Assembly: GCA_937872065.1 (NCBI GenBank)
Contig: CALMRA010000155.1
Span: 1-35,495 of the forward strand
Direction: 5' to 3'
Length of the DNA: 35,495 bases
Source of the DNA: an uncultured Eubacteriaceae bacterium
GTDB taxonomy: Bacteria; Bacillota; Clostridia; Eubacteriales; Eubacteriaceae
Shown here: positions 3,742 through 16,037 of the stretch, in pieces
Numbering within the stretch: the stretch's first letter is position 1
How the letters are laid out: each line of letters starts with the position of its first letter
The notes under the pieces: model-generated
What the model was told of the DNA's origin: nothing
Seen by the model: the letters and a program-made list of their open reading frames with translations, nothing else
Databases searched by the model: none
Position numbers and translations under genes: made by a program

Positions 3742-4101
3742 ATGGATACGAGCGAAAGAATTGCCGTACATCCGATTCTCGGAGTTCCCGAAAAGGGGCG
3801 GCAGGTTCAGTTTACGTATAACGGAAAAACGATGAGCGGATGTGAAGGCGAGCCGGTGGCGATGGCGCTCAAGGCAGCCGGAGTCATGGTCCATCGATAC
3901 ACAAAAAAACGGCATGAGCCCCGCGGGATATTCTGCGCGATAGGCAGATGCACCGACTGCGTCATGGTCGTCGACGGAGTTCCGAACATCCGGACCTGCG
4001 TCACGCCCCTCGCGGAAGGCATGGACGTGCGGACACAGGACGGCGTCACCCCGCTTGCCGGGGATAAAGCGGATAAGGAGGAAGCTGATGGAACGATATG
4101 A
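3742..4101 (+). CDS. [2Fe-2S] subunit of an FAD-dependent amine/amino-acid dehydrogenase (HcnA/gamma-like)
   Basis: A 119-residue protein of the Fer2-type small-subunit family found with sarcosine oxidase, HcnABC, octopine/nopaline oxidases and archaeal/bacterial proline dehydrogenases. It has the plant-ferredoxin cysteine set C65-x4-C70-x2-C73-x12-C86 (IFCAIGRCTDC, RTC), which ligates one [2Fe-2S] cluster, and an N-terminal beta-sheet region (VQFTYNGKTMSGCEGEP). It would pass electrons between the flavin subunits. GGAGGC lies seven bases before the ATG. The gene is first in a four-gene overlapping operon; its last 14 bases overlap the next gene. Family and role in electron transfer are firm; the substrate is not given by this subunit. 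Confidence 0.85.
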   Translation: MDTSERIAVHPILGVPEKGRQVQFTYNGKTMSGCEGEPVAMALKAAGVMVHRYTKKRHEPRGIFCAIGRCTDCVMVVDGVPNIRTCVTPLAEGMDVRTQDGVTPLAGDKADKEEADGTI

Positions 4102-5671
4102 TCTGGTCATTATCGGAGCAGGTCCCGCAGGACTGTCAGCCGCCATCGAAGCCGCCCGCTGCGGCATGAACATCGCGGTGTACGACGAAAACAAACGTCC
4201 CGGCGGACAGCTGTTCAAGCAGATCCACAAATTCTTCGGGTCGAAGGAGCACCACGCGAAGGAACGCGGCTTCCATATCGGGGAGGAGCTTCTGGCGGAG
4301 GCAGACAGACTCGGCGTTGACGTATCCCTGGATACGGTCGTTACGGGTCTGTATCCCGGCAACGAGGTTATGATCAAAAAGGGCGGTCAGGTAAGCCACG
4401 TCCGGGGAGACACGGTGCTCCTCGCGGCAGGCGCTTCTGAAAATATGGCGCCCTTCGACGGATGGACGCTACCCGGCGTCATCGGCGCTGGAGCGGCACA
4501 GACGATGATGAACCTTCACGGCATACGCCCGGGAAGCAGAGTGCTGATGCTCGGGAGCGGCAACGTCGGACTCGTCGTCAGCTATCAGCTGCTTCAGGCA
4601 GGCTGCGAGGTGGCGGCAGTGGTCGACGCGGCGCCGAAGATCGGAGGATACGGCGTCCATGCGGCGAAGCTCGCAAGATGCGGCGTCCCCTTCCAGCTCT
4701 CAAGCACGATTGTCAGGGCGAAGGGCGGCGACCACGTCGAAGGCGCGGTGATCGGCCGGATGGATGAACACGGGAAGATCATACCCGGAAGCGAAACGGA
4801 GATCGACTGCGATACGATCTGCATCGCCGTAGGGCTCTCGCCGATGAACCAGCTGGCCAGAATGTCCGGCTGCCGGATGGAACAGAATCCGAAAAAGGGC
4901 GGCTGCGTTCCCGTATGCAATGAGTACGGCGAAACGAGCGTCCGGGGTCTGTTCGCGGCAGGGGACGCGGAGGGAATCGAAGAAGCGAGCTCGGCGATGA
5001 TCGAAGGACGCATCGCGGGGATCGCCTGCGCGAACCGCCTCGGATTTCTCGAAGATGGTAAAGCGAAGGAAGCAGTCGAGTCAAACGAACAGGCTCTGGA
5101 TACGCTTCGTCAGGGAATGTTCGCTCCGAAGAACCGCGGAAAACAGATCGAAAAGACGGACGAAGGATTTCCGGTCTCTCAGCATCTGCTGGTTACAGGA
5201 TTTCTCGGAGACGACGAGGTGGAAGTCTATCCCGGCGTCACGCACCCGAAGGGACTGCATCCCGTCATCGAATGCACGCAGAACATCCCGTGCAACCCCT
5301 GCCAGGACGCCTGTCCACACGGGTGCATCCATATCGGAAGCTTCATCACGGCGCTTCCGGCAGTGGAAGCCTCGGCCGAATGCATCGGCTGCGGCAGGTG
5401 CGTCGCCTCCTGTTCCGGACAGGCGATCTTCCTCGTCAACGAGGATATCGGCGGCGGATACGCGTCGGTGACGATGCCCTATGAATTCATGCCGCTGCCT
5501 GAAAAGGGCGATATCGGCCTGGCCTGCTCCAGAGACGGACAGGCAATCGGCGAAGCGGAGGTTCTCGACGTCAAGTCGGTGAAGGCGTTCGATCATACGA
5601 ATCTGCTCACCATCCGCGTTCCCGCGGAACTGTCGGGAAAAGCAAGATTTTACAAGGCGGCCCAGCAATGA
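4088..5671 (+). CDS. FAD/NAD(P)-binding subunit with two C-terminal 4Fe-4S motifs (dehydrogenase alpha-like)
   Basis: A 527-residue flavoprotein of the pyridine-nucleotide-disulfide oxidoreductase fold, like HcnB, OoxA and the alpha subunit of dye-linked proline dehydrogenases. The first dinucleotide fold is IIGAGPAG (8-15), a second is VLMLGSGNVG (152-161), and the late FAD motif RGLFAAGDAEG lies at 286-296. After residue 395 comes a ferredoxin-like insert: C402-x2-C405-x3-C409-x3-C413 and C432-x2-C435-x2-C438-x3-C442, plus C396, suggesting up to two [4Fe-4S] clusters. Many relatives have a 2Fe-2S domain in this position instead; here that role sits in the separate gene at 5668. The start at 4088 has AAGGAGGA upstream and begins at MERYDLVIIG; an upstream in-frame start at 4055 lies inside the previous gene. 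The stop overlaps the next start (ATGA). Confidence 0.88.
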   Translation: MERYDLVIIGAGPAGLSAAIEAARCGMNIAVYDENKRPGGQLFKQIHKFFGSKEHHAKERGFHIGEELLAEADRLGVDVSLDTVVTGLYPGNEVMIKKGGQVSHVRGDTVLLAAGASENMAPFDGWTLPGVIGAGAAQTMMNLHGIRPGSRVLMLGSGNVGLVVSYQLLQAGCEVAAVVDAAPKIGGYGVHAAKLARCGVPFQLSSTIVRAKGGDHVEGAVIGRMDEHGKIIPGSETEIDCDTICIAVGLSPMNQLARMSGCRMEQNPKKGGCVPVCNEYGETSVRGLFAAGDAEGIEEASSAMIEGRIAGIACANRLGFLEDGKAKEAVESNEQALDTLRQGMFAPKNRGKQIEKTDEGFPVSQHLLVTGFLGDDEVEVYPGVTHPKGLHPVIECTQNIPCNPCQDACPHGCIHIGSFITALPAVEASAECIGCGRCVASCSGQAIFLVNEDIGGGYASVTMPYEFMPLPEKGDIGLACSRDGQAIGEAEVLDVKSVKAFDHTNLLTIRVPAELSGKARFYKAAQQ

Positions 5672-5997
5672 CACAGATAACAGACCGCAGTATGAGAACC
5701 GCGGCTTTTAAACCGGAGGCAGACGACGATATGCTCATCTGCCGCTGTGAAGAGATCACCAAGGGTGAAATACGGAGAGCGGTGTACGAGGGCATGTACG
5801 AAATCACCGAAATACGCCGCTGGCTCCGTGTAGGAATGGGGCTTTGTCAGGGACAGACCTGCACGAAACTCGTACAGCGCATCGTCGCGAAGGAGCTTGG
5901 CGTCTCTCCCGCACAGCTGGAGAGCGCCGCGGCAAGAGGTCCTGTCCGGCCCATCGAAATGGCGTGCATGGGCAATGAGAAAGGCGGGGTATGCTGA
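5668..5997 (+). CDS. BFD-type [2Fe-2S] subunit
   Basis: A 109-residue protein with the BFD-like [2Fe-2S] pattern C25-x-C27 (LICRCEEIT) and C60-x4-C65 (GMGLCQGQTC), as in bacterioferritin-associated ferredoxin, NirB and the fused C-terminal domains of HcnB/OoxA relatives. It follows the FAD/4Fe-4S subunit with an ATGA overlap, so translation is coupled. Its presence as a free subunit explains why the preceding protein lacks this domain. Expected role: an extra electron relay in the same membrane-free or loosely attached complex. The C-terminal 40 residues show no further motif and end in Cys. Confidence 0.85.
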   Translation: MTQITDRSMRTAAFKPEADDDMLICRCEEITKGEIRRAVYEGMYEITEIRRWLRVGMGLCQGQTCTKLVQRIVAKELGVSPAQLESAAARGPVRPIEMACMGNEKGGVC

Positions 5998-7160
5998 TGA
6001 AAACCACAAGCGATGTCCTGATCATCGGCTCCGGTATCAACGGAAGCGCCGCGGCGTACTATCTCGCGAAAAGCGGTGTCGATGTCACAGTGCTCGAAGG
6101 AGCTTCGGTGATCGGCGGAGGCGGATCGTCCAGGAACGGCGGCGGTGTCCGCCAGTCCGGACGCGACAGCAGAGAGCTTCCCTATGTGATGTGGGGAATC
6201 GAAAATCTTTGGCCGACCCTGTCCGAAGAGCTGGACGCCGATACGGAATATACGCAGAAGGGAAACCTGAGACTCGGAAAGACTCAGGCCCATCTCGACA
6301 AGCTCGCGCAGCTTGCGCAGTCCGCCGGGAAGGTCGGACTCGACGTCCGGATGATCGATGCGATGGAGGCCCGGGAGATCAACCCGTACCTGTCTGAGGA
6401 AGTTGCCGGCGCCAGCTGGTGTCCAACCGACGGCCATGCGAATCCGCTGAAGACGACGCTGGCATTCTATCGGGCGGCGAGAAGACTCGGCGCGAGATTC
6501 TATACGAACGCGATTGTCGAACGGATCGAGAAGGTCCACGGACGGGCCAGAAAGGTCGTGCTTAAGAACGGAATGGTCTTCGAGGCGGACTGCATCATCG
6601 TTGCGGCGGGATACGCGAGCCGGAAGATCGTCAATTCCGTCGGGATCGACGTCCCGATGGATCTGAAGGTCTCCGAAACCCTCGTCACAGAAACACAGCC
6701 CCATATGTTCGACCAGATGCTGGGAACGGCGGCGGCCGACTTTTACGGACATCAGACGAAGGACGGATCCTTCGTATTCGGCGGCTCCGCAGGCTACGAT
6801 CAGTTTGTACGCCATGACGAGACGACGTTTTCGACGCCTCCGGCTTCAAGTCTCCACGGTCCCTGCATCTGTCGGGCCGTAACGGGATACTTCCCGAGCC
6901 TTGAGCACGCGAAGATCATCCGCTGCTGGGGCGGCTGGACCGATCTGTGTGCGGACGGCGTGCCTGTGATCTCTCCGGTGGACGAGGTCCCCGGGCTTAT
7001 CCTGGCCTGCGCCTTCACCGGCCACGGCTTCGGTTCCGGGCCTGTCGTCGGGCTCATGCTCGCGCAGATGGCCCGGGGCGAAGAGACTGTCGTCGATCTG
7101 AGCGCCCTGCGCTACGACCGTTTCGCGGCAAAGGATAAAAAGAATAAGAAGGCAGCCTGA
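5997..7160 (+). CDS. DAO-family FAD-dependent amine/amino-acid dehydrogenase, catalytic subunit (HcnC/sarcosine-oxidase-beta-like)
   Basis: A 387-residue flavoenzyme of the D-amino-acid oxidase (DAO) family. The N-terminal FAD fold reads DVLIIGSGINGSAAAYYLA (Gly-11, 13, 16), followed by GGGGSSRNGGGVRQSGRD, typical of sarcosine oxidase beta, HcnC and proline dehydrogenase beta subunits. The C-terminal FAD motif CAFTGHGFGSGPVVG is also present. This subunit should oxidise the substrate C-N bond and pass electrons to the three Fe-S/FAD partners encoded just upstream. ATGs exist at 5991 and 5997; 5997 is preferred because the AAAGGCGG site sits nine bases away and the TGATG overlap couples it to the previous stop. 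No [Fe-S] motif is present. Which amine, imino acid or amino acid is used cannot be read from the sequence. Confidence 0.88.
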   Translation: MKTTSDVLIIGSGINGSAAAYYLAKSGVDVTVLEGASVIGGGGSSRNGGGVRQSGRDSRELPYVMWGIENLWPTLSEELDADTEYTQKGNLRLGKTQAHLDKLAQLAQSAGKVGLDVRMIDAMEAREINPYLSEEVAGASWCPTDGHANPLKTTLAFYRAARRLGARFYTNAIVERIEKVHGRARKVVLKNGMVFEADCIIVAAGYASRKIVNSVGIDVPMDLKVSETLVTETQPHMFDQMLGTAAADFYGHQTKDGSFVFGGSAGYDQFVRHDETTFSTPPASSLHGPCICRAVTGYFPSLEHAKIIRCWGGWTDLCADGVPVISPVDEVPGLILACAFTGHGFGSGPVVGLMLAQMARGEETVVDLSALRYDRFAAKDKKNKKAA

Positions 7161-7223
7161 CAGGCGGCCAAAAACCATAAAGATAATAAGTCAGAACAGA
7201 TCTGATCAGCATAATCATTGAGT

Positions 7224-7278
7224 AAAACAGCACAGACAACGGGGTCGAAGGCGAAAGCCTCCGGCCCCGTTTTTTTTA
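7224..7278 (+). terminator. Terminator between dehydrogenase operon and permease, with the shared 5' motif
   Basis: ACGGGGTCGAAGGC (7239-7252), a GAAA loop and GCCTCCGGCCCCGT (7257-7270) form a strong stem with one A-C mismatch, followed by eight to nine Ts. It is preceded directly by AAAACAGCACAGACAA (7224-7239), 15 of 16 bases identical to the motif before the operon's leader terminator. It may end the dehydrogenase operon, attenuate the permease gene at 7346, or both. Confidence 0.85.
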
Positions 7279-7345
7279 TACACAGCTATTATCATCCGTT
7301 TTCGGCATCTGGTATTACCGTTTTATTTCTAAGAAGGAGGAAATC

Positions 7346-8776
7346 ATGGAATCCAAATTTAACAAAGTACTCGGCATGAAAGACATTCTGGTTATCGCGT
7401 TCGGCGCCATGATCGGATGGGCATGGGTCGTCAGTTCAGGCGACTGGATCAGCACGGCAGGCACCTGGGGAGCGGTCATCGCGTTTCTGATCGGCGGGAT
7501 CATGGTCCTGTTTGTCGGTCTGACCTATGCGGAGCTGACATCCGCGATGCCGCAGTGCGGCGGCGAGCATGTGTTCAGCTACAGAGCGCTGGGACCCAAC
7601 GCGTCGTTTATCTGTACCTGGGAGATTATCCTCGGGTATGCGTCCGTAGCAGCCTTTGAAGCCGTCGCTTTCCCGACGGTCATCACGTGGATTTTCCCGA
7701 ACTTCCTGGTGGGCTATATGTACACCGTGGCAGGCTTCGACGTCTACGCCTCATGGGTCGCGGTAGCCGTCATCACCGCAGTCTTCATGACCTTTATCAA
7801 TATCCTCGGCGCAAAAACCGCCGCGAAGATTCAGTCGGTACTGACCTTTATCATTGCGGCCGCAGGCATCCTGCTCCTGGTCGGTTCGGTAATGCACGGG
7901 AGTATGGCCAATATCGAAGCATCCGCATTCTCAACTGAAACCGGCTCCGGTATGAGCGTTCTCGGCGCGATTCTGACCATCGCCGTCATGACGCCCTTCT
8001 ATTTCGTCGGATTTGACGTCATCCCGCAGGCTGCGGAAGAAGTCAACGTTCCGTACAAGAAGCTTGGCAGCATCATGCTGTTATCGATCTTCCTGGCCGT
8101 TATCTTCTACGCGGGCATTGTCTTCGCGGTAGGCTATATCCTTCCGGTTTCTCAGATGACAGGCGACAGCCTTCCGTCTGCAGATGCGATGAGACTTGCC
8201 TTCAACAGCGATATCATGGCGAAGGTCCTCGTAATCGGCGGCATGTCCGGGATCATCACATCCTGGAACGCCTTTATCATCGGCGGCAGCCGCGCGATCT
8301 TCTCGATGGCAGAATCCAAGATGCTTCCGGCTTTCTTCGGCAAACTCAGTGAAAAATACAACACGCCGGTCAACGCGATCCTGCTTATCGGCCTGATGTC
8401 CGTAATCGCGCCGTTCTTCGGCAGAAAGATGCTGGTCTGGATCGTCGACGCAGGCTCACTCGCCGTCGTCATCGCGTATTTCCTCGTTTCACTGTCGTTC
8501 CTCGTGCTCAGAGTCAAGGAACCTGAAATGATCCGTCCGTACAAGGTTAAGGGCGGGACATTCGTCGGCGTTATGGCCGTACTGATGTCGGGAATCTTCG
8601 TACTGCTGTACGTCGTTCCGCTTCCCTTCGCATCCTCCGCGCTCGTATGGCAGGAATGGCTGTGGTTCGGCGGCTGGGCGGCTGTGGGCGCCGGTTTCTA
8701 CGCGTACTGCAATAGAGCCTACGGCAAAAAGTTCGCGTCGCATATCGATGTGGCTCTCGACAGCAGCCTGATGTAA
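7346..8776 (+). CDS. APC-family amino-acid/amine permease
   Basis: A 476-residue polytopic membrane protein of the amino acid-polyamine-organocation superfamily. TM1 begins VIAFGAMIGWAWVVSSGDWI, the unwound GxxIGxG-type substrate helix in slightly altered form, and LTYAELTSAMPQCGGEHVFSYRALG after TM2 is the classic APC consensus. About twelve hydrophobic segments are seen by eye. AAGGAGG lies seven bases before the ATG. It sits directly after the dehydrogenase operon behind a terminator that shares a sequence motif with the operon's leader, and before the OCD-like enzyme. It is inferred to import the substrate oxidised by the upstream complex. The exact substrate is unknown. Confidence 0.88.
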   Translation: MESKFNKVLGMKDILVIAFGAMIGWAWVVSSGDWISTAGTWGAVIAFLIGGIMVLFVGLTYAELTSAMPQCGGEHVFSYRALGPNASFICTWEIILGYASVAAFEAVAFPTVITWIFPNFLVGYMYTVAGFDVYASWVAVAVITAVFMTFINILGAKTAAKIQSVLTFIIAAAGILLLVGSVMHGSMANIEASAFSTETGSGMSVLGAILTIAVMTPFYFVGFDVIPQAAEEVNVPYKKLGSIMLLSIFLAVIFYAGIVFAVGYILPVSQMTGDSLPSADAMRLAFNSDIMAKVLVIGGMSGIITSWNAFIIGGSRAIFSMAESKMLPAFFGKLSEKYNTPVNAILLIGLMSVIAPFFGRKMLVWIVDAGSLAVVIAYFLVSLSFLVLRVKEPEMIRPYKVKGGTFVGVMAVLMSGIFVLLYVVPLPFASSALVWQEWLWFGGWAAVGAGFYAYCNRAYGKKFASHIDVALDSSLM

Positions 8777-8842
8777 TCAGGTCATACAGCTGATCGGCAG
8801 GACTTTTGAACAATTAAGTTTTGTAAACAGATGGAGTAATCA

Positions 8843-9985
8843 ATGAACGAACAGGAAGTAAACTTTTTATATCTGAGCGAAGCCGATCTTATCGAAGCCG
8901 GCGTTCAGGATATGGCCGGCTGTATCGATACGATGGAAGAGCTCTTCTCGCTGATGAGCAAGGGCGACTACATGATGGGCGGTCCCAACGGGAACGAACA
9001 CGGCATCAAGATGCGCTTTCCGGAGCATTCCGAAATCAAGGGAATGCCGCTGGACAAGCCCGACTACCGTTTTGTCGCAATGCCTGCCTACGTGGGCGGT
9101 CCGTATAAAATGTGCGGGATCAAGTGCTACGGTTCAAACCAGGAAAACAGGAAGAAGGAGCTGCCGCGCTCGATCCTGATGATCACGCTGATGGATTACG
9201 TATCGGGCGTCCCCCTCGCCTATATGTCGGCCAACGAGATCTCCGCGATCCGTACAGGCGCCGTCCCGGGACTCGGGGCCCGCTACCTGAGCGTCAAAGA
9301 GCCGAAAACCGCGGCGATTATCGGACCGGGTGTGATGGGACGCACCGCAATCGACGCGTTCCTGACGGAAAAGCCTTCCATCACGAAGGTCAAGGTCAAG
9401 GGACGCAGTCAGAGCGGCATCGACGGGTTTATCGACTACTGCAGGGAACGTTTCCCGAAGGTCACGGATTTTGAAGTCTGCGCCACGGATGAGGAAGCCT
9501 GCAGAGACGCGGATATCGTCTACTTCGGTACGACGAACGCGCCGGTCTTCGAAGACAATCCGAGGGTCGAGGAAAGCTGGCTTAAGCCGGGCGCGCTGGT
9601 CATGAGCACCTCCGCGCTGCTCGTCGACGACGGATTCATGTCGGACAAGACCAGATGCAAGCTGATCTCCGACAATTACAAAATGTACGAGGGCTGGGGA
9701 GTCGGGCAGGAGCTGCCTACCCAGAAGACCGTCTCCTCGCTGATCGGCATGAAATTCTACGATCTCGTCGCTTCGGGACAGATCGCGAGAGAGGATATCA
9801 CCGATATCGGGGATATCATCAACGGTTATGCGCCGGGCAGGGACAGCGAAGACCAGATCATCATCTACGCGGTGGGCGGCATGCCCACCGAGGACGTGGC
9901 CTGGGGAAGCAAGCTGTATCATACGGCGCTTGAGAAGAATATCGGAACCCCGCTGATGCTCTGGGATAAGCCTGCGATTGCCTGA
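8843..9985 (+). CDS. Ornithine cyclodeaminase/mu-crystallin family enzyme ('tyramine oxidase subunit B'-like)
   Basis: A 380-residue NAD(P)-binding protein. The family signature MSANEISAIRTGAVPG (128-143) includes the conserved Arg of ornithine cyclodeaminases, followed by the Rossmann motif AAIIGPGVMGR (157-167). Members are lysine/ornithine cyclodeaminases, imine (ketimine, pyrroline-2-carboxylate) reductases and opine-type enzymes. The N-terminal block around MMGGPNGNEHGIKMRFPE is characteristic of a clostridial subgroup that I recall being labelled 'tyramine oxidase subunit B' in databases; that name is not proof of function. TGGAGT precedes the ATG. Lying between two permeases and behind an FAD imine-forming dehydrogenase, it could reduce or deaminate the imine product. 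This is inference. Confidence 0.82.
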   Translation: MNEQEVNFLYLSEADLIEAGVQDMAGCIDTMEELFSLMSKGDYMMGGPNGNEHGIKMRFPEHSEIKGMPLDKPDYRFVAMPAYVGGPYKMCGIKCYGSNQENRKKELPRSILMITLMDYVSGVPLAYMSANEISAIRTGAVPGLGARYLSVKEPKTAAIIGPGVMGRTAIDAFLTEKPSITKVKVKGRSQSGIDGFIDYCRERFPKVTDFEVCATDEEACRDADIVYFGTTNAPVFEDNPRVEESWLKPGALVMSTSALLVDDGFMSDKTRCKLISDNYKMYEGWGVGQELPTQKTVSSLIGMKFYDLVASGQIAREDITDIGDIINGYAPGRDSEDQIIIYAVGGMPTEDVAWGSKLYHTALEKNIGTPLMLWDKPAIA

Positions 9986-10036
9986 CTGCAGACGATCTGA
10001 CGGAAATCAGACGGTATGAAATAGAATGAATACAAC

Positions 10037-10070
10037 GCGCTGCCGGAACATTCCGGCGGCGTATTTTTTT
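10037..10070 (+). terminator. Terminator after the OCD-family gene
   Basis: GCGCTGCCGGA pairs with TCCGGCGGCGT over 11 bp with an ACAT loop, followed by a run of seven Ts. The rest of the 253-base gap before 10239 shows no gene. Confidence 0.85.
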
Positions 10071-10238
10071 ACGTAAATGTTAAGACGCCGCGCCGGGGTA
10101 CATTATTTCTATAAGAATTTTCAGGCAGATTTCAGACAGAAAGAAAGCGGTATGAACGCGGCAAGCCGGATCTTTCTGGAAATCCTTCTAAATAATCAGC
10201 ATAACGGCCGGTTTGAGTGACGACAGCGGAGGCGCGGC

Positions 10239-11681
10239 ATGAAACAGATACGGACAACGGACAGAAAATACATCAGCTGGTACGCGGTCGTACTCATCGG
10301 CTTTACGATGGTATGGGGCTTCCCAAATGTCATAAACGGCTTCGCGCTGTTCGGAGGGATCCGGGCCATCGTTCCGTGGATCGCCGTATTCCTGCTGTAC
10401 ATGCTCCCGTATTCGCTGATGGTGGCGGAGCTCGGCTCGGTCTTCTCCAGAGAGGGCGGGGGCGTCAGCTCCTGGCTCCTGAAAACCGCAGGTCCGATGA
10501 TGGCCTTTTACGCGGGCTGGACCTACTGGGTCACCCAGCTGCCTTTTATCGCGCAGACGCCTAATAACATCATCATCGCGATGAGCTGGATCGTCTACGA
10601 GAAGAACGACGTCAATTCGATGAGCGTGCTGTTTACCCAGCTGGTGAGTCTGGCGGTGTTCGCAGCCGCGCTGTATCTCTCGTCCCGGGGAATGTCCGCG
10701 CTCAAAAAGCTCGGAAGCGTCGCGGGGGGCGCGATGATCGTCCTGTCGCTTCTGTATATCGCCCTTGTCTTCGCGGCGCCGGGGCTTGCCGGAGCGAAGG
10801 TGAACACCATCGACTGGAGCTGGTCTGCGATTAAGCCTGAATTCGACGTGACGACTATCACCAACTTTTCTGTTCTCGTCTTCTCCGTCGTCGGGATGGA
10901 GGAGGTCGCGCCGTATATCACGGAGATGCGAAACCCGAAGAAGGGCTTTCCGAAGAGCATGGTCTGGCTTGTCCTGATCGTCATGGTGTGCGCGCTGCTG
11001 GGGACTGTCGCGATGGGGATGATGTTCAATTCCAGCGCGATCCCCGCGGACATGGTGACCAACGGCGGCTTCTACGCCTTCCGTCTTCTGGGCGAATACT
11101 ACCATATCGGGAATGCGCTGCTTATCATCTACTCTGTGTGCTGGATCATCTACAATCTGGCCGTGATCGTCCTGTCCATCGACGCACCGCTGCGTATCCT
11201 GATGCGGGGCACGAACAGCGACTACATCCCGAAGCCGATGTTCAGGCAGAACCGGCACGGCGCCTACATCAACGGACTCAAGCTCGTCGCGGCGATCGTC
11301 TGTCCGCTGATCATCCTGCCTGTCTTCGGGATAAGCGGGATCAACAATCTGGTGTACTGGCTCGTCAAGGTCAATTCGGTCACGACACCGCTGGTCAACC
11401 TGTGGGTATTCGCCGCGTACTTCCTGCTGAAGAAACGGCATGAGAACCTCGAGCTGAGCACTGACTACCAGCTCACGAAGAGCCGGGGCTTCGGAATGTT
11501 CCTCGCTGTCTGGTGCTTCGCGATTACCGCCGCCTCGTGTATTGCGGGAATGTACTCCACCGATACCTTCGAGCTTGTCATGAATATCGCGACGCCTGTC
11601 GTTCTCGTCGGTCTCGGCGTGATCATGCCCAGGCTTGCCAGGCGCTGGAATATCAGACACGGCGCTTCCGGCAACGGTTAA
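10239..11681 (+). CDS. APC-family permease, glutamate/GABA-antiporter-like
   Basis: A 480-residue polytopic membrane protein. The first segments (WYAVVLIGFTMVWGFPNVIN, LPYSLMVAELGSVFSREGGG) follow the glutamate:GABA antiporter/AGT branch of the APC superfamily rather than the branch of the permease at 7346. About twelve membrane segments are seen. CGGAGGCG lies before the ATG. It follows the terminator at 10037-10070, so it may have its own transcript, although no clear promoter was found in 10071-10238. It may exchange the oxidation product or a related amine/amino acid. Substrate unknown. Confidence 0.85.
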   Translation: MKQIRTTDRKYISWYAVVLIGFTMVWGFPNVINGFALFGGIRAIVPWIAVFLLYMLPYSLMVAELGSVFSREGGGVSSWLLKTAGPMMAFYAGWTYWVTQLPFIAQTPNNIIIAMSWIVYEKNDVNSMSVLFTQLVSLAVFAAALYLSSRGMSALKKLGSVAGGAMIVLSLLYIALVFAAPGLAGAKVNTIDWSWSAIKPEFDVTTITNFSVLVFSVVGMEEVAPYITEMRNPKKGFPKSMVWLVLIVMVCALLGTVAMGMMFNSSAIPADMVTNGGFYAFRLLGEYYHIGNALLIIYSVCWIIYNLAVIVLSIDAPLRILMRGTNSDYIPKPMFRQNRHGAYINGLKLVAAIVCPLIILPVFGISGINNLVYWLVKVNSVTTPLVNLWVFAAYFLLKKRHENLELSTDYQLTKSRGFGMFLAVWCFAITAASCIAGMYSTDTFELVMNIATPVVLVGLGVIMPRLARRWNIRHGASGNG

Positions 11682-12827: not shown

Positions 12828-13808
12828 TCAGAATTTTTCCGCGCTGAGCTTGTCGATAATTTCGTCAGCTTTTTCATAGACACCCGGGAATGAGCTGAAG
12901 CCGAGTCCCTGGGTCAGGCACGGAATGAAGTAGAGCTTGCCGCATTCGTCGACGGCTTCACGTGTCTTTTCTTCGAGGATTTCAGGCGTCCATTCCGGGA
13001 AGTCGACGACGCCGCTGTCGATATCGCCCATGAAGGAGATCTGCGGTCCGTATTTTTCGATCAGTTCCGGAACATTGTTGGTGGTCATGCAGCCCTGCCA
13101 GACGTCGATGCCGACATCGATCATATCGGGTACGAGAGTCGCGGCGTAGCAGTCCGAGTGATGGACGATATATTCGACGCCGTTGTCTTTATAATGCTTG
13201 TAGATCTTCGCGTAAGCAGGCTTGATGAATTCTTCGAACATATCAGGCGACATAAACGTGCTGCGCTGTCCGCCCCAGTCGTCGTGATGGAAGATGACTT
13301 CCGGATGGAGATGTTCGATGATCTGATCCGCCCAGTCAATTTCATACTGAGTCAGTCTGTCGATGAGTTCGTGCATCGCTTCAGGTTCTTCGTAGTAAGC
13401 GATCAGGGCTTCTTCCATGCTCATCAGGTGATGGGTGCGTTCGAAGATTCCGGGTGCAATGAAGGCTGTGACATATTTCTGGCCGTCTTCGCGGATTTTC
13501 GCCGCGTGATCCATCGCAGGCTTCCATTCTTCTTCGGTATACATGACTGACGGAACCTTGAGCTGGTTTTTCCAGTCGGTTACGTCTTTAATTACGATAT
13601 GTTCCGCGTCGTGAACCGGAAACTGTCCGATCTGGCCCACCGGCCATTCCCAGGTAATTCCCCAGTCATCCAGGAACTGCGTGCCCGGTTCACCGAAAAA
13701 TTTGCCGGGAGCTTCGAGGATAATATCCATGAATTCGTACTGCTTGACGAAACGGTCAGGGTTTCCGCCGTTAATTGTTTCTTTAAAGTTGTCTTTGATC
13801 GAAAGCAT
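12828..13808 (-). CDS. Uroporphyrinogen-decarboxylase-family corrinoid methyltransferase
   Basis: A 326-residue protein of the URO-D/MtaA/CmuA family. Methyl-transfer members bind zinc through His/Cys to activate a thiol or substrate; true URO-D enzymes lack these cysteines. Here the region reads IVHHSDCY with H216, H217 and C220, and a further cysteine C297 lies in FIPCLTQG, so C220-x76-C297 has the same spacing as the two zinc cysteines I recall for MtaA. HHDDWGG (174-180) is another conserved patch. GGAGGA precedes the ATG. The gene follows the corrinoid-protein gene by 15 bases in one minus-strand operon, so a methyl group is inferred to move between a methylated compound or acceptor and the corrinoid. 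Whether it is the donor-side or acceptor-side enzyme is undecided. Confidence 0.85.
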   Translation of the reverse strand: MLSIKDNFKETINGGNPDRFVKQYEFMDIILEAPGKFFGEPGTQFLDDWGITWEWPVGQIGQFPVHDAEHIVIKDVTDWKNQLKVPSVMYTEEEWKPAMDHAAKIREDGQKYVTAFIAPGIFERTHHLMSMEEALIAYYEEPEAMHELIDRLTQYEIDWADQIIEHLHPEVIFHHDDWGGQRSTFMSPDMFEEFIKPAYAKIYKHYKDNGVEYIVHHSDCYAATLVPDMIDVGIDVWQGCMTTNNVPELIEKYGPQISFMGDIDSGVVDFPEWTPEILEEKTREAVDECGKLYFIPCLTQGLGFSSFPGVYEKADEIIDKLSAEKF

Positions 13809-13823
13809 GTTGTCCTCCGTTAT

Positions 13824-14453
13824 TTAAGCTGTCAGTTCTTTGGCTTCAGTTACTGCAGAGCCTGCGTCAGGCGCATATCCGTCCGCACCGATTTCAGAAG
13901 CGAAGTCAGGCGTTACCGGCGCTCCGCCGACGATTACCTTGAAGTCGCCGAGATCGGAATTCTTCAGAGTTTTGACGGTTTCTCTCATTGCGGGCATCGT
14001 TGTGGTCAGAAGTCCGGACAGTGCGACAAGCTTGACGTCCGGCTGTTTTTTGATTTCGTCCACGAACTGGGAAGCTTTGACGTCGACGCCGAGGTCGATT
14101 ACGTCGTAGCCTGCGCTCTTGATCATCATCGCGACGAGATTCTTGCCGATATCGTGCAGGTCGCCTTCGACGGTTCCGATAATGCAGGTACCGAGATTTT
14201 CCGTCGCGCCTTCAGCGAGAAGCGGTTCGAGAACGGCGAGGCCGTTTTTCATCGTCTTTGCGGAAATGAGCATTTCAGGTACGAAGATTTCGTCTCGTGA
14301 GAAGCGGTCTCCGACTTCGCCCATTGTGTCGATCATTGCGTCCAGGATTTCCTGCGGGGTGCTGCCGTCATCCAGCGCTTCCTGTACCTTTGCCGCGATC
14401 AGTTTCGATCTGCCTCTCGAAACCAGGTCCTTTACGTCATCTAATTTAGCCAT
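13824..14453 (-). CDS. Methyltransferase cognate corrinoid protein (B12-binding)
   Basis: A 209-residue protein of the MtmC/MttC/MtaC type. Residues 1-85 form the helical B12-2 domain (LDAMIDTMGEVGDRFSRDEI, FVPEMLISAKTM). Residues 88-209 form the Rossmann B12-binding domain, with the cobalt-ligand motif DLHDIGKNLV (D98, H100, G103) and ALSGLLTTTMPAMRETV. It carries the methyl group on cobalamin between methyltransferases. The start at 14453 has GGAGGAG five bases upstream; a GTG at 14465 overlaps that site. It is the first gene of a two-gene operon divergent from two tetR genes, with an operator-like palindrome just inside the transcript start. The substrate-specific methyltransferase partner and the activating ATPase (RamA-like) are not in the window. 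Confidence 0.92.
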   Translation of the reverse strand: MAKLDDVKDLVSRGRSKLIAAKVQEALDDGSTPQEILDAMIDTMGEVGDRFSRDEIFVPEMLISAKTMKNGLAVLEPLLAEGATENLGTCIIGTVEGDLHDIGKNLVAMMIKSAGYDVIDLGVDVKASQFVDEIKKQPDVKLVALSGLLTTTMPAMRETVKTLKNSDLGDFKVIVGGAPVTPDFASEIGADGYAPDAGSAVTEAKELTA

Positions 14454-14471
14454 TTTCTCCTCCACGTTTGT

Positions 14472-14485
14472 TTAATCGTGATTAG
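14472..14485. promoter_or_regulatory. Operator-like palindrome at the corrinoid operon
   Basis: TTAATCGTGATTAG lies between the predicted transcript start (about 14488) and the corrinoid start codon. It matches TTAATCATAATTAA at 14634-14647 in 11 of 14 bases, with all three differences A-to-G. Confidence 0.5.
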
Positions 14486-14494
14486 CCTAACTGC

Positions 14495-14523
14495 AGAATA
14501 TAACGATGGGCATCCGATGTCAA
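14495..14523 (-). promoter_or_regulatory. Promoter of the corrinoid methyltransferase operon
   Basis: On the minus strand TTGACA (14523-14518) is followed after 17 bp by TATTCT (14500-14495); TATATT (14502-14497) at 15 bp is the alternative. Confidence 0.65.
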
Positions 14524-14632
14524 TTGAAACTGTAAAGGAAACGCATCGAAGACTGCGCGAACTTTCAGGGCTATTTTCGTGCATAATGTAGGATTGACAG
14601 AGGTGCAGAGTGCTGGTAAAATCTGGGCGATT

Positions 14633-14648
14633 ATTAATCATAATTAAT
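14633..14648. promoter_or_regulatory. Operator-like palindrome upstream of the tetR pair
   Basis: ATTAAT-CATA-ATTAAT is a near-perfect palindrome about 40 bases before the first tetR start and touches a TAAAAT -10-like box (14649-14654). With the related site at 14472 it makes a two-operator arrangement between divergent genes. Confidence 0.5.
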
Positions 14649-14684
14649 TAAAATAGTTGATTCATTGGAAAATACGAGGGCATT

Positions 14685-15353
14685 ATGGCAGACTTTACGG
14701 CGGGACAGGATACGAAACAGAAAATATACGATACCGCCAGGAGACTGTTTTATCAGCGCGGCTACCTGAAGACAACCCTGGCCGCGATCTCACAGGAATC
14801 GGGGATCAATTCGGCGATGGTCTCTTACTATTTTGACAGCAAGGCGAATCTCGCGCTGGCTGTTTTTGCCGAATACATGCAGGATACGAAGAATCTGGTT
14901 GGCGAGCTGCTTCCGTCAGTTTCCGAACGATCGGATCTGATGTTTCAGACTGCGGTAGAGGTTCGCGTTCATGTGAAGAATATGCAGAGCTTCTATCAGC
15001 TGGGCCGTTTTCTTCACGAGCTGAATCAGACAAGCTTCTATCTGAAGAGAGAGAGTATTACCACCGAATTTTTCGAACGGCTCAGCTCGGCATACGATTT
15101 GAATATAAGCTACGACAAGGTCTGCGGAATTACGGTTACGAATTACGCGATTATGGCTTCGCTGATCGCGGCGCGCTACGAAGGCGTGCTTGATCTGACA
15201 AACGCGGATCTTGCCCGCATCATTGTAACCCAGTATGCCCATGCTCTGGGGTTTTCCGATGCGGAGATCAAGGATCTGATCGATTCTTCCTATGATGCCT
15301 TTCGGAAGATGTCGATTCATGTCGGCGATAACTTTACGCTGATCAGCGGCTGA
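14685..15353 (+). CDS. TetR-family regulator, first of a tandem pair
   Basis: A 222-residue TetR/AcrR-type repressor. The HTH at about residues 10-55 reads IYDTARRLFYQRGYLKTTLA then SGINSAMVSYYFDSKANLA, a standard TetR recognition region. The C-terminal ligand domain is unspecific. GAGGGC precedes the ATG. It is divergent from the corrinoid operon and followed after 12 bases by a related regulator with an almost identical NSAMVSYYF-SK recognition helix, so the two probably see the same DNA site. It is inferred to repress the corrinoid operon and itself through the two palindromes in the intergenic region. The ligand is unknown and may be the methylated substrate. Confidence 0.88.
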   Translation: MADFTAGQDTKQKIYDTARRLFYQRGYLKTTLAAISQESGINSAMVSYYFDSKANLALAVFAEYMQDTKNLVGELLPSVSERSDLMFQTAVEVRVHVKNMQSFYQLGRFLHELNQTSFYLKRESITTEFFERLSSAYDLNISYDKVCGITVTNYAIMASLIAARYEGVLDLTNADLARIIVTQYAHALGFSDAEIKDLIDSSYDAFRKMSIHVGDNFTLISG

Positions 15354-15365
15354 TCGGAGGCGGAG

Positions 15366-16037
15366 ATGGCAGGAAACGGTGAAATCAGAGAGCGTATTTA
15401 TGAGGCCGCGAAGGATCTGTTTTACGAAAACGGATTTGCAAAAACGACGCTTCGGATGATCGCGGAAAGAGCCGATGCGAACAGCGCGATGGTTTCGTAT
15501 TATTTCGGCAGCAAGACTCAGCTCGCATCGGAGATTATCGGGGATTATTATGCAGCTGCCAGGAGGGCGGGTAAAGTCTGTCTGGATGAACTGTGTCCGA
15601 ATGCAAGTCTGTATCTGGAGTCCGCGCTTGACAACAGGATCACGACGCAGAACTTTTCGGATAATCAGAAGCTGCTCCGGTTTTATCTCGAACTCGATGA
15701 GACCAATTTTTATGTCGATTCGGATATCGTTGCGGTAGACATCTTCAGAGAGCTGTTTAAAAGTCGTTCGGCACAGATGGATGAGGATAAGATCCGGGCT
15801 GCCGCGATCAGTGTTTCCGCCCTGGCGAATGCGCTGATCAGCGCGCGTGCAAACGGAATGATTCACTACAGCGACGAAGAGATTGTCCGTTCGATCATGG
15901 ATTATCACGGTGTCTGTCTGCAAATTCCTCAGGATGAGACCGAACGGGTGCTCGCTGAGTCGAAGGAGCTTGCGAAACGGATCAGGACCACGACCGGCCC
16001 CGGTTTTGAGGTCAGATGCGAAGTCATCGGCGAATAA
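15366..16037 (+). CDS. TetR-family regulator, second of a tandem pair
   Basis: A 223-residue TetR-type protein. Its HTH (IYEAAKDLFYENGFAKTTLR, ANSAMVSYYFGSKTQLA) is clearly homologous to the preceding protein, and similarity continues weakly into the C-terminal domain at similar positions (ALISARANG versus SLIAARYEG; DEEIVRSI versus NADLARII). This points to an old tandem duplication with diverged ligand pockets. CGGAGGCGGAG lies before the ATG and the gene is cotranscribed with the first. A TetR heterodimer, or two sensors acting on one operator, are both possible. Confidence 0.88.
   Translation: MAGNGEIRERIYEAAKDLFYENGFAKTTLRMIAERADANSAMVSYYFGSKTQLASEIIGDYYAAARRAGKVCLDELCPNASLYLESALDNRITTQNFSDNQKLLRFYLELDETNFYVDSDIVAVDIFRELFKSRSAQMDEDKIRAAAISVSALANALISARANGMIHYSDEEIVRSIMDYHGVCLQIPQDETERVLAESKELAKRIRTTTGPGFEVRCEVIGE

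Follow-up and report, generated by a model that had tools for sequence, protein, structure and literature searches.

The closest known counterparts of the system treated here are the vanillate and veratrol O-demethylases of Acetobacterium dehalogenans, in which a donor-side methyltransferase I (MTI) of the UroD superfamily, OdmB or VdmB, adjoins a B12-binding corrinoid protein (CP). OdmB and VdmB, together with MtvB and MtoB of the same superfamily, demethylate methoxylated aromatics (passages of PMC13222342 and PMC8630106). OdmB and VdmB act together with a methyltransferase II (MTII), which belongs to the pterin-binding family, and with a RACo activator. A. dehalogenans has 26 putative methyltransferase systems, and in it the two O-demethylases and the chloromethane system Cdm share one activator for their CPs (passages of PMC13222342). 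Here we describe a four-gene locus (positions 12828–16037) in a 35,495-nucleotide stretch of DNA from an uncultured Eubacteriaceae bacterium (contig CALMRA010000155.1 of assembly GCA_937872065.1), the whole of which we call the window. The locus encodes a UroD-superfamily MTI and an adjoining CP, and across a divergent intergenic region two TetR regulators. As in A. dehalogenans, the genome encodes a pterin-binding-family MTII and a RACo activator, but these do not lie beside the MTI. In this host, a relative of the acetate-forming Acetobacterium, we read the locus as the substrate-specific half of a corrinoid methyl-transfer system with four components. The system is most likely an O-demethylase of aryl methyl ethers such as methoxylated plant aromatics (a reading to which we give a probability of roughly 0.7).

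Three of these components are known from the chloromethane system CdmBCA of A. dehalogenans, with a UroD-superfamily MTI, a CP and a folate-dependent MTII, CdmA, in which tetrahydrofolate was modelled with the help of 4O1E and 4O1F. CdmB differs from the window MTI in being nearest to the archaeal MtoB (31%) and in being clustered with its MTII, and no TetR pair is described for it in the passages of PMC13222342 consulted. MtoABCD of Methermicoccus shengliensis also resembles the proposed system in its UroD-type MT1, CP, MtrH-like MT2, reductive activator and nearby regulator, but it is archaeal, forms a single operon and uses tetrahydromethanopterin as the acceptor (passages of PMC8630106).

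The methyltransferase, its corrinoid protein and probable partners elsewhere in the genome

The window MTI matches PF01208 (URO-D) at 58.7 bits (cut-off 23.9) and exceeds no NCBIfam cut-off. Its predicted structure, modelled with an alignment of 26 relatives (pLDDT, the predicted local distance difference test, 94.9), has the fold of the UroD superfamily. The best Foldseek match of the model is the Methanosarcina mazei methyltransferase 4ay7 (E 1e-10), and the Z scores of 23.8–23.9 against 4ay7 and 4ay8 are tied with those of UroD entries, which reach 24.5; the CdmB structure 9RUI was not among the matches of this fold search, whose structure set ends in April 2026. Residues invariant among the 26 relatives include E25, E123, E156, H174, H175, D176, D177, H216, H217, D219 and Q238. 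In a tree of 96 MTIs (scores above 330 bits, with 20 chosen out of the 77 remaining named loci), the sister of the window protein is the MTI of genome G002, which belongs to another genus of the same family; the two are 66% identical and joined with support of 99/99. The relatives in our samples are not independent of each other, L142 and L148 being nearly identical. A search of 61 genomes, this one among them, gave homologues of the MTI in 38, frequently with numerous copies per genome, and the named species that carry one include Sporobacter termitidis, Eubacterium aggregans, Blautia and Alkalibacter. One copy, G040:C1:756012-756997, was matched in two pieces (profile positions 1–261 and 259–326) and is probably a frame-broken paralogue.

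The CP carries the domains B12-binding_2 (PF02607; 62.6 bits, cut-off 23) and B12-binding (PF02310; 88.3 bits, cut-off 32.1), has the corrinoid motif DxHxxG in the form GDLHDIGK, and is closest among solved chains to 1y80 (E 1.5e-46). As both Pfam domains pass their cut-offs and TIGR02370 does not (175.7 bits, cut-off 215.3), we regard it as a corrinoid protein outside the TIGR02370 subfamily.

A sequence-only reading of this locus had remarked on the lack of a partner methyltransferase and of an activator. This holds within the window, where no gene for MttB, MTII or RACo was seen among the open reading frames and the whole-genome profile matches, but it does not hold for the genome (2.55 Mb in 315 contigs, 97% complete), for which two RACo_C_ter and three Pterin_bind matches rule it out. 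On contig C59 (L011:5176-10866) we find, in this order, a PucR-type regulator (- strand), an MTII (+), a second CP (+), a DUF2284 protein (+) and a RACo-type activator (-), and no MTI or other donor-side methyltransferase. The C59 MTII (265 aa) scores 300.7 bits to 4o0q/4o1e/4o1f and exceeds the NF005719 cut-off, the C59 CP is 56% identical to the window CP, and the activator has the domains Fer2, Raco_middle and RACo_C_ter. PF02607 occurs in three proteins of the genome, namely the two CPs and a MetH-like protein on C8. The enzymes of the Wood-Ljungdahl pathway are found on C165 and C222, with AcsV (856 bits), AcsE (492 bits, cut-off 370), ACS gamma (525 bits) and delta, and CODH. The AcsD gene is cut by the ends of C165 (L013:7164-7544) and C222 (L014:3099-3755), and as identical residues are encoded at both ends, C165 and C222 are probably contiguous. 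Thus the loci are complementary: MTI and CP in the window, MTII, CP and activator on C59, and the folate methyl branch on other contigs. Corrinoid methyltransferase cassettes of unknown substrate number in the dozens in acetogens. With its one MTI of this clade and one complementary MTII and activator locus, this genome is a minimal case: a split system could be assigned here without redundancy of paralogues.

Nor do we find support for the earlier view that an MttB/MtmB-like partner is usual. A donor-side methyltransferase can be of either the UroD or the MttB type, and MttB (PF06253) had no match in this genome (the search did not extend to MtmB), while the positive control, Methanosarcina acetivorans, was matched; amine demethylation through MttB was rejected on this ground. 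We found neither a second, identical copy of the window genes in the genome nor an orthologue that has been characterised. PF01208 is present in only one other protein, a distant UroD-family protein of 414 aa on C202 (L012:2546-3790) with an adjoining MarR gene; its relatives in genomes like Eubacterium limosum and like Acetobacterium adjoin single TetRs of the subfamily of the window pair.

Probable substrate and proposed mechanism

In the system we propose, which follows the chemistry described for the O-demethylases and Cdm (passages of PMC13222342 and PMC8630106), the MTI would bind the methylated donor, and the Co(I) corrinoid of the CP would attack the methyl group to give methyl-Co(III)-CP. 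The MTII would then move the methyl group from methyl-Co(III)-CP to tetrahydrofolate, and the resulting methyl-tetrahydrofolate would enter the Wood-Ljungdahl pathway, while the RACo-type activator would return the CP to Co(I) after accidental oxidation to Co(II). MTII and activator would be supplied in trans, most likely from C59; the activator shared between systems in A. dehalogenans supports such use of a distant activator. The two TetRs would most likely act as repressors of the CP-MTI operon that diverges from them as well as of their own genes, with the substrate, or the phenol formed from it, as the most likely inducer.

We favor an aryl methyl ether as the donor, because most characterised bacterial UroD-type MTIs that work with a separate CP and a folate-dependent MTII take methoxylated aromatics, and because the carriers of this MTI family include demethoxylators. 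Demethoxylating physiology is a trait of organisms in which the family occurs, Sporobacter being an example, and demethoxylation by E. aggregans and Blautia is touched on in parts of PMC12915777. Of the substrates named in the sequence-only reading, a methoxylated aromatic thus appears the likeliest; a methylamine is made less likely by the lack of MttB, and a thioether is no more than conceivable.

Several observations weigh against the assignment as an aryl-methyl-ether O-demethylase. No gene for an aromatic transporter is adjacent in the window. Neither the MTI family profile (at E 0.1) nor a plain sequence search found a solved structure in the PDB, and the MTI is a putative member of the clade of OdmB (O87604), VdmB (Q6W001; both accessions from parts of PMC10418091), MtvB and MtoB. 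CdmB, a UroD-type MTI close to the O-demethylases, acts on haloalkanes such as chloromethane but does not use methoxylated aromatics, and for several clades of MTIs no substrate is known (passages of PMC13222342). The C59 MTII is closest (62–63%) to MTIIs of E. limosum-like genomes and of G002, and at L206 and L207, the two loci of relatives where the neighbour was tested by Pfam, MttB adjoins the MTII; a quaternary-amine module may thus be the origin of C59. As for the regulatory part, the best palindrome score in the intergenic region (candidate operators at 14630–14650) was reached in 81 of 200 shuffles and that of the L126 intergenic region in 39 of 200, and a word of at least 10 bases shared between the intergenic regions of window and relative is present in 72 of 300 shuffles. 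At least two such words, as observed, or one longer word occurred in 29 of 300 shuffles; the shared 10-mer is found once in each source, with expectations of 0.09 and 0.21, and was chosen after the fact.

The example of CdmB could suggest that the same machinery acts here on a donor that is not aromatic, for instance a haloalkane or a thioether. The N-terminal residues of the MTI from about 28 to 45 are among its most variable and differ strongly between paralogues, as expected if the substrates differ. On the other hand, the clade occurs in organisms known for demethoxylation (in part touched on in PMC12915777), and the high number of paralogues is what we would expect for many aromatic substrates. 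We consider a non-aromatic donor unlikely, though the foremost of the alternatives. The kinship of the C59 MTII with MttB-associated enzymes could also be read as a sign of decay, in which C59 had served an MttB system that is now lost and the window cassette is a relic with no working partner. We find this improbable, as none of the four open frames is broken, the window locus and C59 are exact complements, and the MTI and both TetRs keep 42–66% identity to proteins of another genus. Least probable of all is a role outside catabolism, with the MTI being HemE, a decarboxylase of the UroD kind, or MtaA, a methylase of the coenzyme M type. The fold is common to all of them and there are weak NCBIfam matches, but 38.2 bits for MtaA/CmuA (TIGR01463) and 29.4 bits for HemE (TIGR01464) are far below the cut-offs of 235.4 and 302.95, and we rejected both identities; furthermore, the MTI appears to be cotranscribed with a corrinoid protein. 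C220 and C297 of the window protein, in the two loops where MtaA carries its zinc cysteines, are not conserved among the 26 family members, in all of which H216, H217 and D219 are retained instead.

The TetR pair and the recurrence of the layout

The two TetRs are homologous over their full length (27.9% identity over 215 aa, E 3e-31), and each is more similar to one member of a TetR pair in G002 than to the other (Table 1). In a tree of 46 TetRs (each at least 100 bits) the window pair and the G002 pair form one group with support of 99/96 and long branches, in which TetR2 joins its G002 counterpart while TetR1 and its counterpart meet in an open fork. The G002 pair lies downstream in the direction diverging from CP-MTI, where UroD-like frames precede it and a further UroD protein follows. 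The sister group consists of single TetRs from E. limosum-like and Acetobacterium-like genomes, which also adjoin UroD-family genes (L186, L187, L188, L192, L194, L203). From this grouping and these neighbours, we suggest that a single TetR beside a UroD methyltransferase was likely duplicated in tandem before the two genera split and that both copies were retained. Other pairs look like separate duplications, as the mates at L185 group together (97/78) and those at L173 do likewise, with a join flagged for long branches. What stands out at the window is the retention of a TetR pair beside the sister MTI in another genus, a conserved pair that is one of several.

Such co-retention fits two-input or heterodimer control, although independent, sub-functionalised repressors would look the same. 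Only tentatively, and with doubt, do we entertain that the pair works as one unit, either a heterodimer or a two-ligand switch (responding, for instance, to substrate and phenolic product), and that paired TetRs have arisen several times independently beside such cassettes; if so, two-input TetR control would be a recurrent solution in acetogens. The conserved pair, by its ligand and operator, would offer a handle on the methyl donor served. No TetR pair at a module of this kind turned up in open-licence PMC papers, and we do not claim that it is unpublished.

To place the layout among relatives, 60 regions around MTIs of related genomes were surveyed, taken mostly from the top of the homologue list, and neighbours were counted only for MTIs with the full 3 kb or 5 kb on both sides. 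Because a region or contig ended too soon, the 3-kb count lost 18 MTIs of the related genomes and 25 of the named loci, and the 5-kb count lost 26 and 33. The three named loci L046-L048 were excluded because they duplicate regions already in the survey. TetRs were labelled with profiles seeded by the two window TetRs, so the TetR counts are lower bounds. Within 3 kb (54 MTIs), a CP was present at 42, an MTII at 22 and a RACo activator at 2, and 21 had a CP with neither MTII nor activator; at least one TetR was found at 15 and at least two at 4. Within 5 kb (46 MTIs) the corresponding numbers were 39, 22, 5 and 17, with at least one TetR at 18 and at least two at 7. The last count speaks against the earlier suggestion that paired TetRs are unusual beside such modules. 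The named loci L049-L125 from Lachnospiraceae, Oscillospiraceae and others (54 MTIs, 3 kb) had PucR-type regulators at 27, RACo at 19, MTII at 17 and a TetR of the window kind at 1.

In three single-contig genomes we compared these associations with rotated MTI positions, using 31 of 59 MTI matches (all above 450 bits; the 28 weaker were dropped) and all 99 TetR matches. A TetR lay within 3 kb of 12 of the 31 MTIs against a mean of 1.7 under rotation, and none of 5000 rotations reached 12. Two TetRs within 5 kb were found for 3 of 31 (0.30 expected, 1.1% of rotations) and within 3 kb for 1 of 31 (0.13, 11.6%). Cassettes of relatives (L141, L145, L154, L158, L164, L172, L173, L182, L185) resemble the window in having an MTI of the same family, a CP and TetR neighbours, often with MTII or activator absent nearby. 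They differ in that their TetRs belong to several subfamilies, with the pairs at L185 and L173 each being its own sister pair. The window layout is thus ordinary, one of very many CP-MTI cassettes in this order.

Gene coordinates and neighbouring genes

The four genes are intact open frames (Table 1) and look like two operons, MTI with CP and TetR1 with TetR2. The CP gene lies 15 bases upstream of the MTI gene on the same strand, 12 bases (15354–15365) separate the TetR genes, and 119 bases separate the MTI end of the first operon from a convergent DegV gene. A corrinoid module facing two homologous TetR genes had been proposed here from sequence, and it is confirmed with one correction, the boundary of the CP. 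Its open reading frame was called from GTG 14465, which overlaps a GGAGGAG ribosome-binding site before ATG 14453, and family members start at the position of this ATG (MSKIEEVK...), so we place the start there.

Table 1. Features of the locus, in window coordinates.
Feature	Position	Strand	Basis or remark
MTI, UroD-superfamily corrinoid methyltransferase, donor side, 326 aa	12828-13808	-	PF01208, predicted fold, tree
CP, methyltransferase corrinoid protein, 209 aa	13824-14453	-	PF02607 and PF02310, GDLHDIGK, start at ATG 14453
Divergent intergenic region, 231 bases	14454-14684		promoter-like site per operon; AT-rich palindromes at 14630-14650, possible operators
TetR regulator 1, 222 aa	14685-15353	+	TetR_N (PF00440) 48.6 bits, cut-off 24; 44% to G002:C16:34023+, 32% to the neighbouring TetR
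TetR regulator 2, 223 aa	15366-16037	+	TetR_N (PF00440) 49.7 bits, cut-off 24; 42% to G002:C16:34710+, 34% to the other G002 TetR; pairing 100/99

The promoter-like sites are TTGACA-17-TAAAAT at 14594–14622 (+) and TTGACA-17-TATTCT at 14523–14495 (-); taken alone, the promoter scan is weak evidence, as it picked up 5 such sites in its region and 3.0 in shuffled sequence. A role of the locus in anti-phage defence was set aside, with 0 families for the four window proteins. Positions 4055–11681 of the window hold a cluster that resembles those for amine or opine catabolism and that could conceivably be connected with the demethylase cassette, for example through 3-methoxytyramine. It encodes proteins like the alpha and beta subunits of sarcosine oxidase (below cut-off), an ornithine-cyclodeaminase family protein that scores 464.9 against NF004848, 'tyramine oxidase subunit B' (cut-off 362), and two APC permeases.

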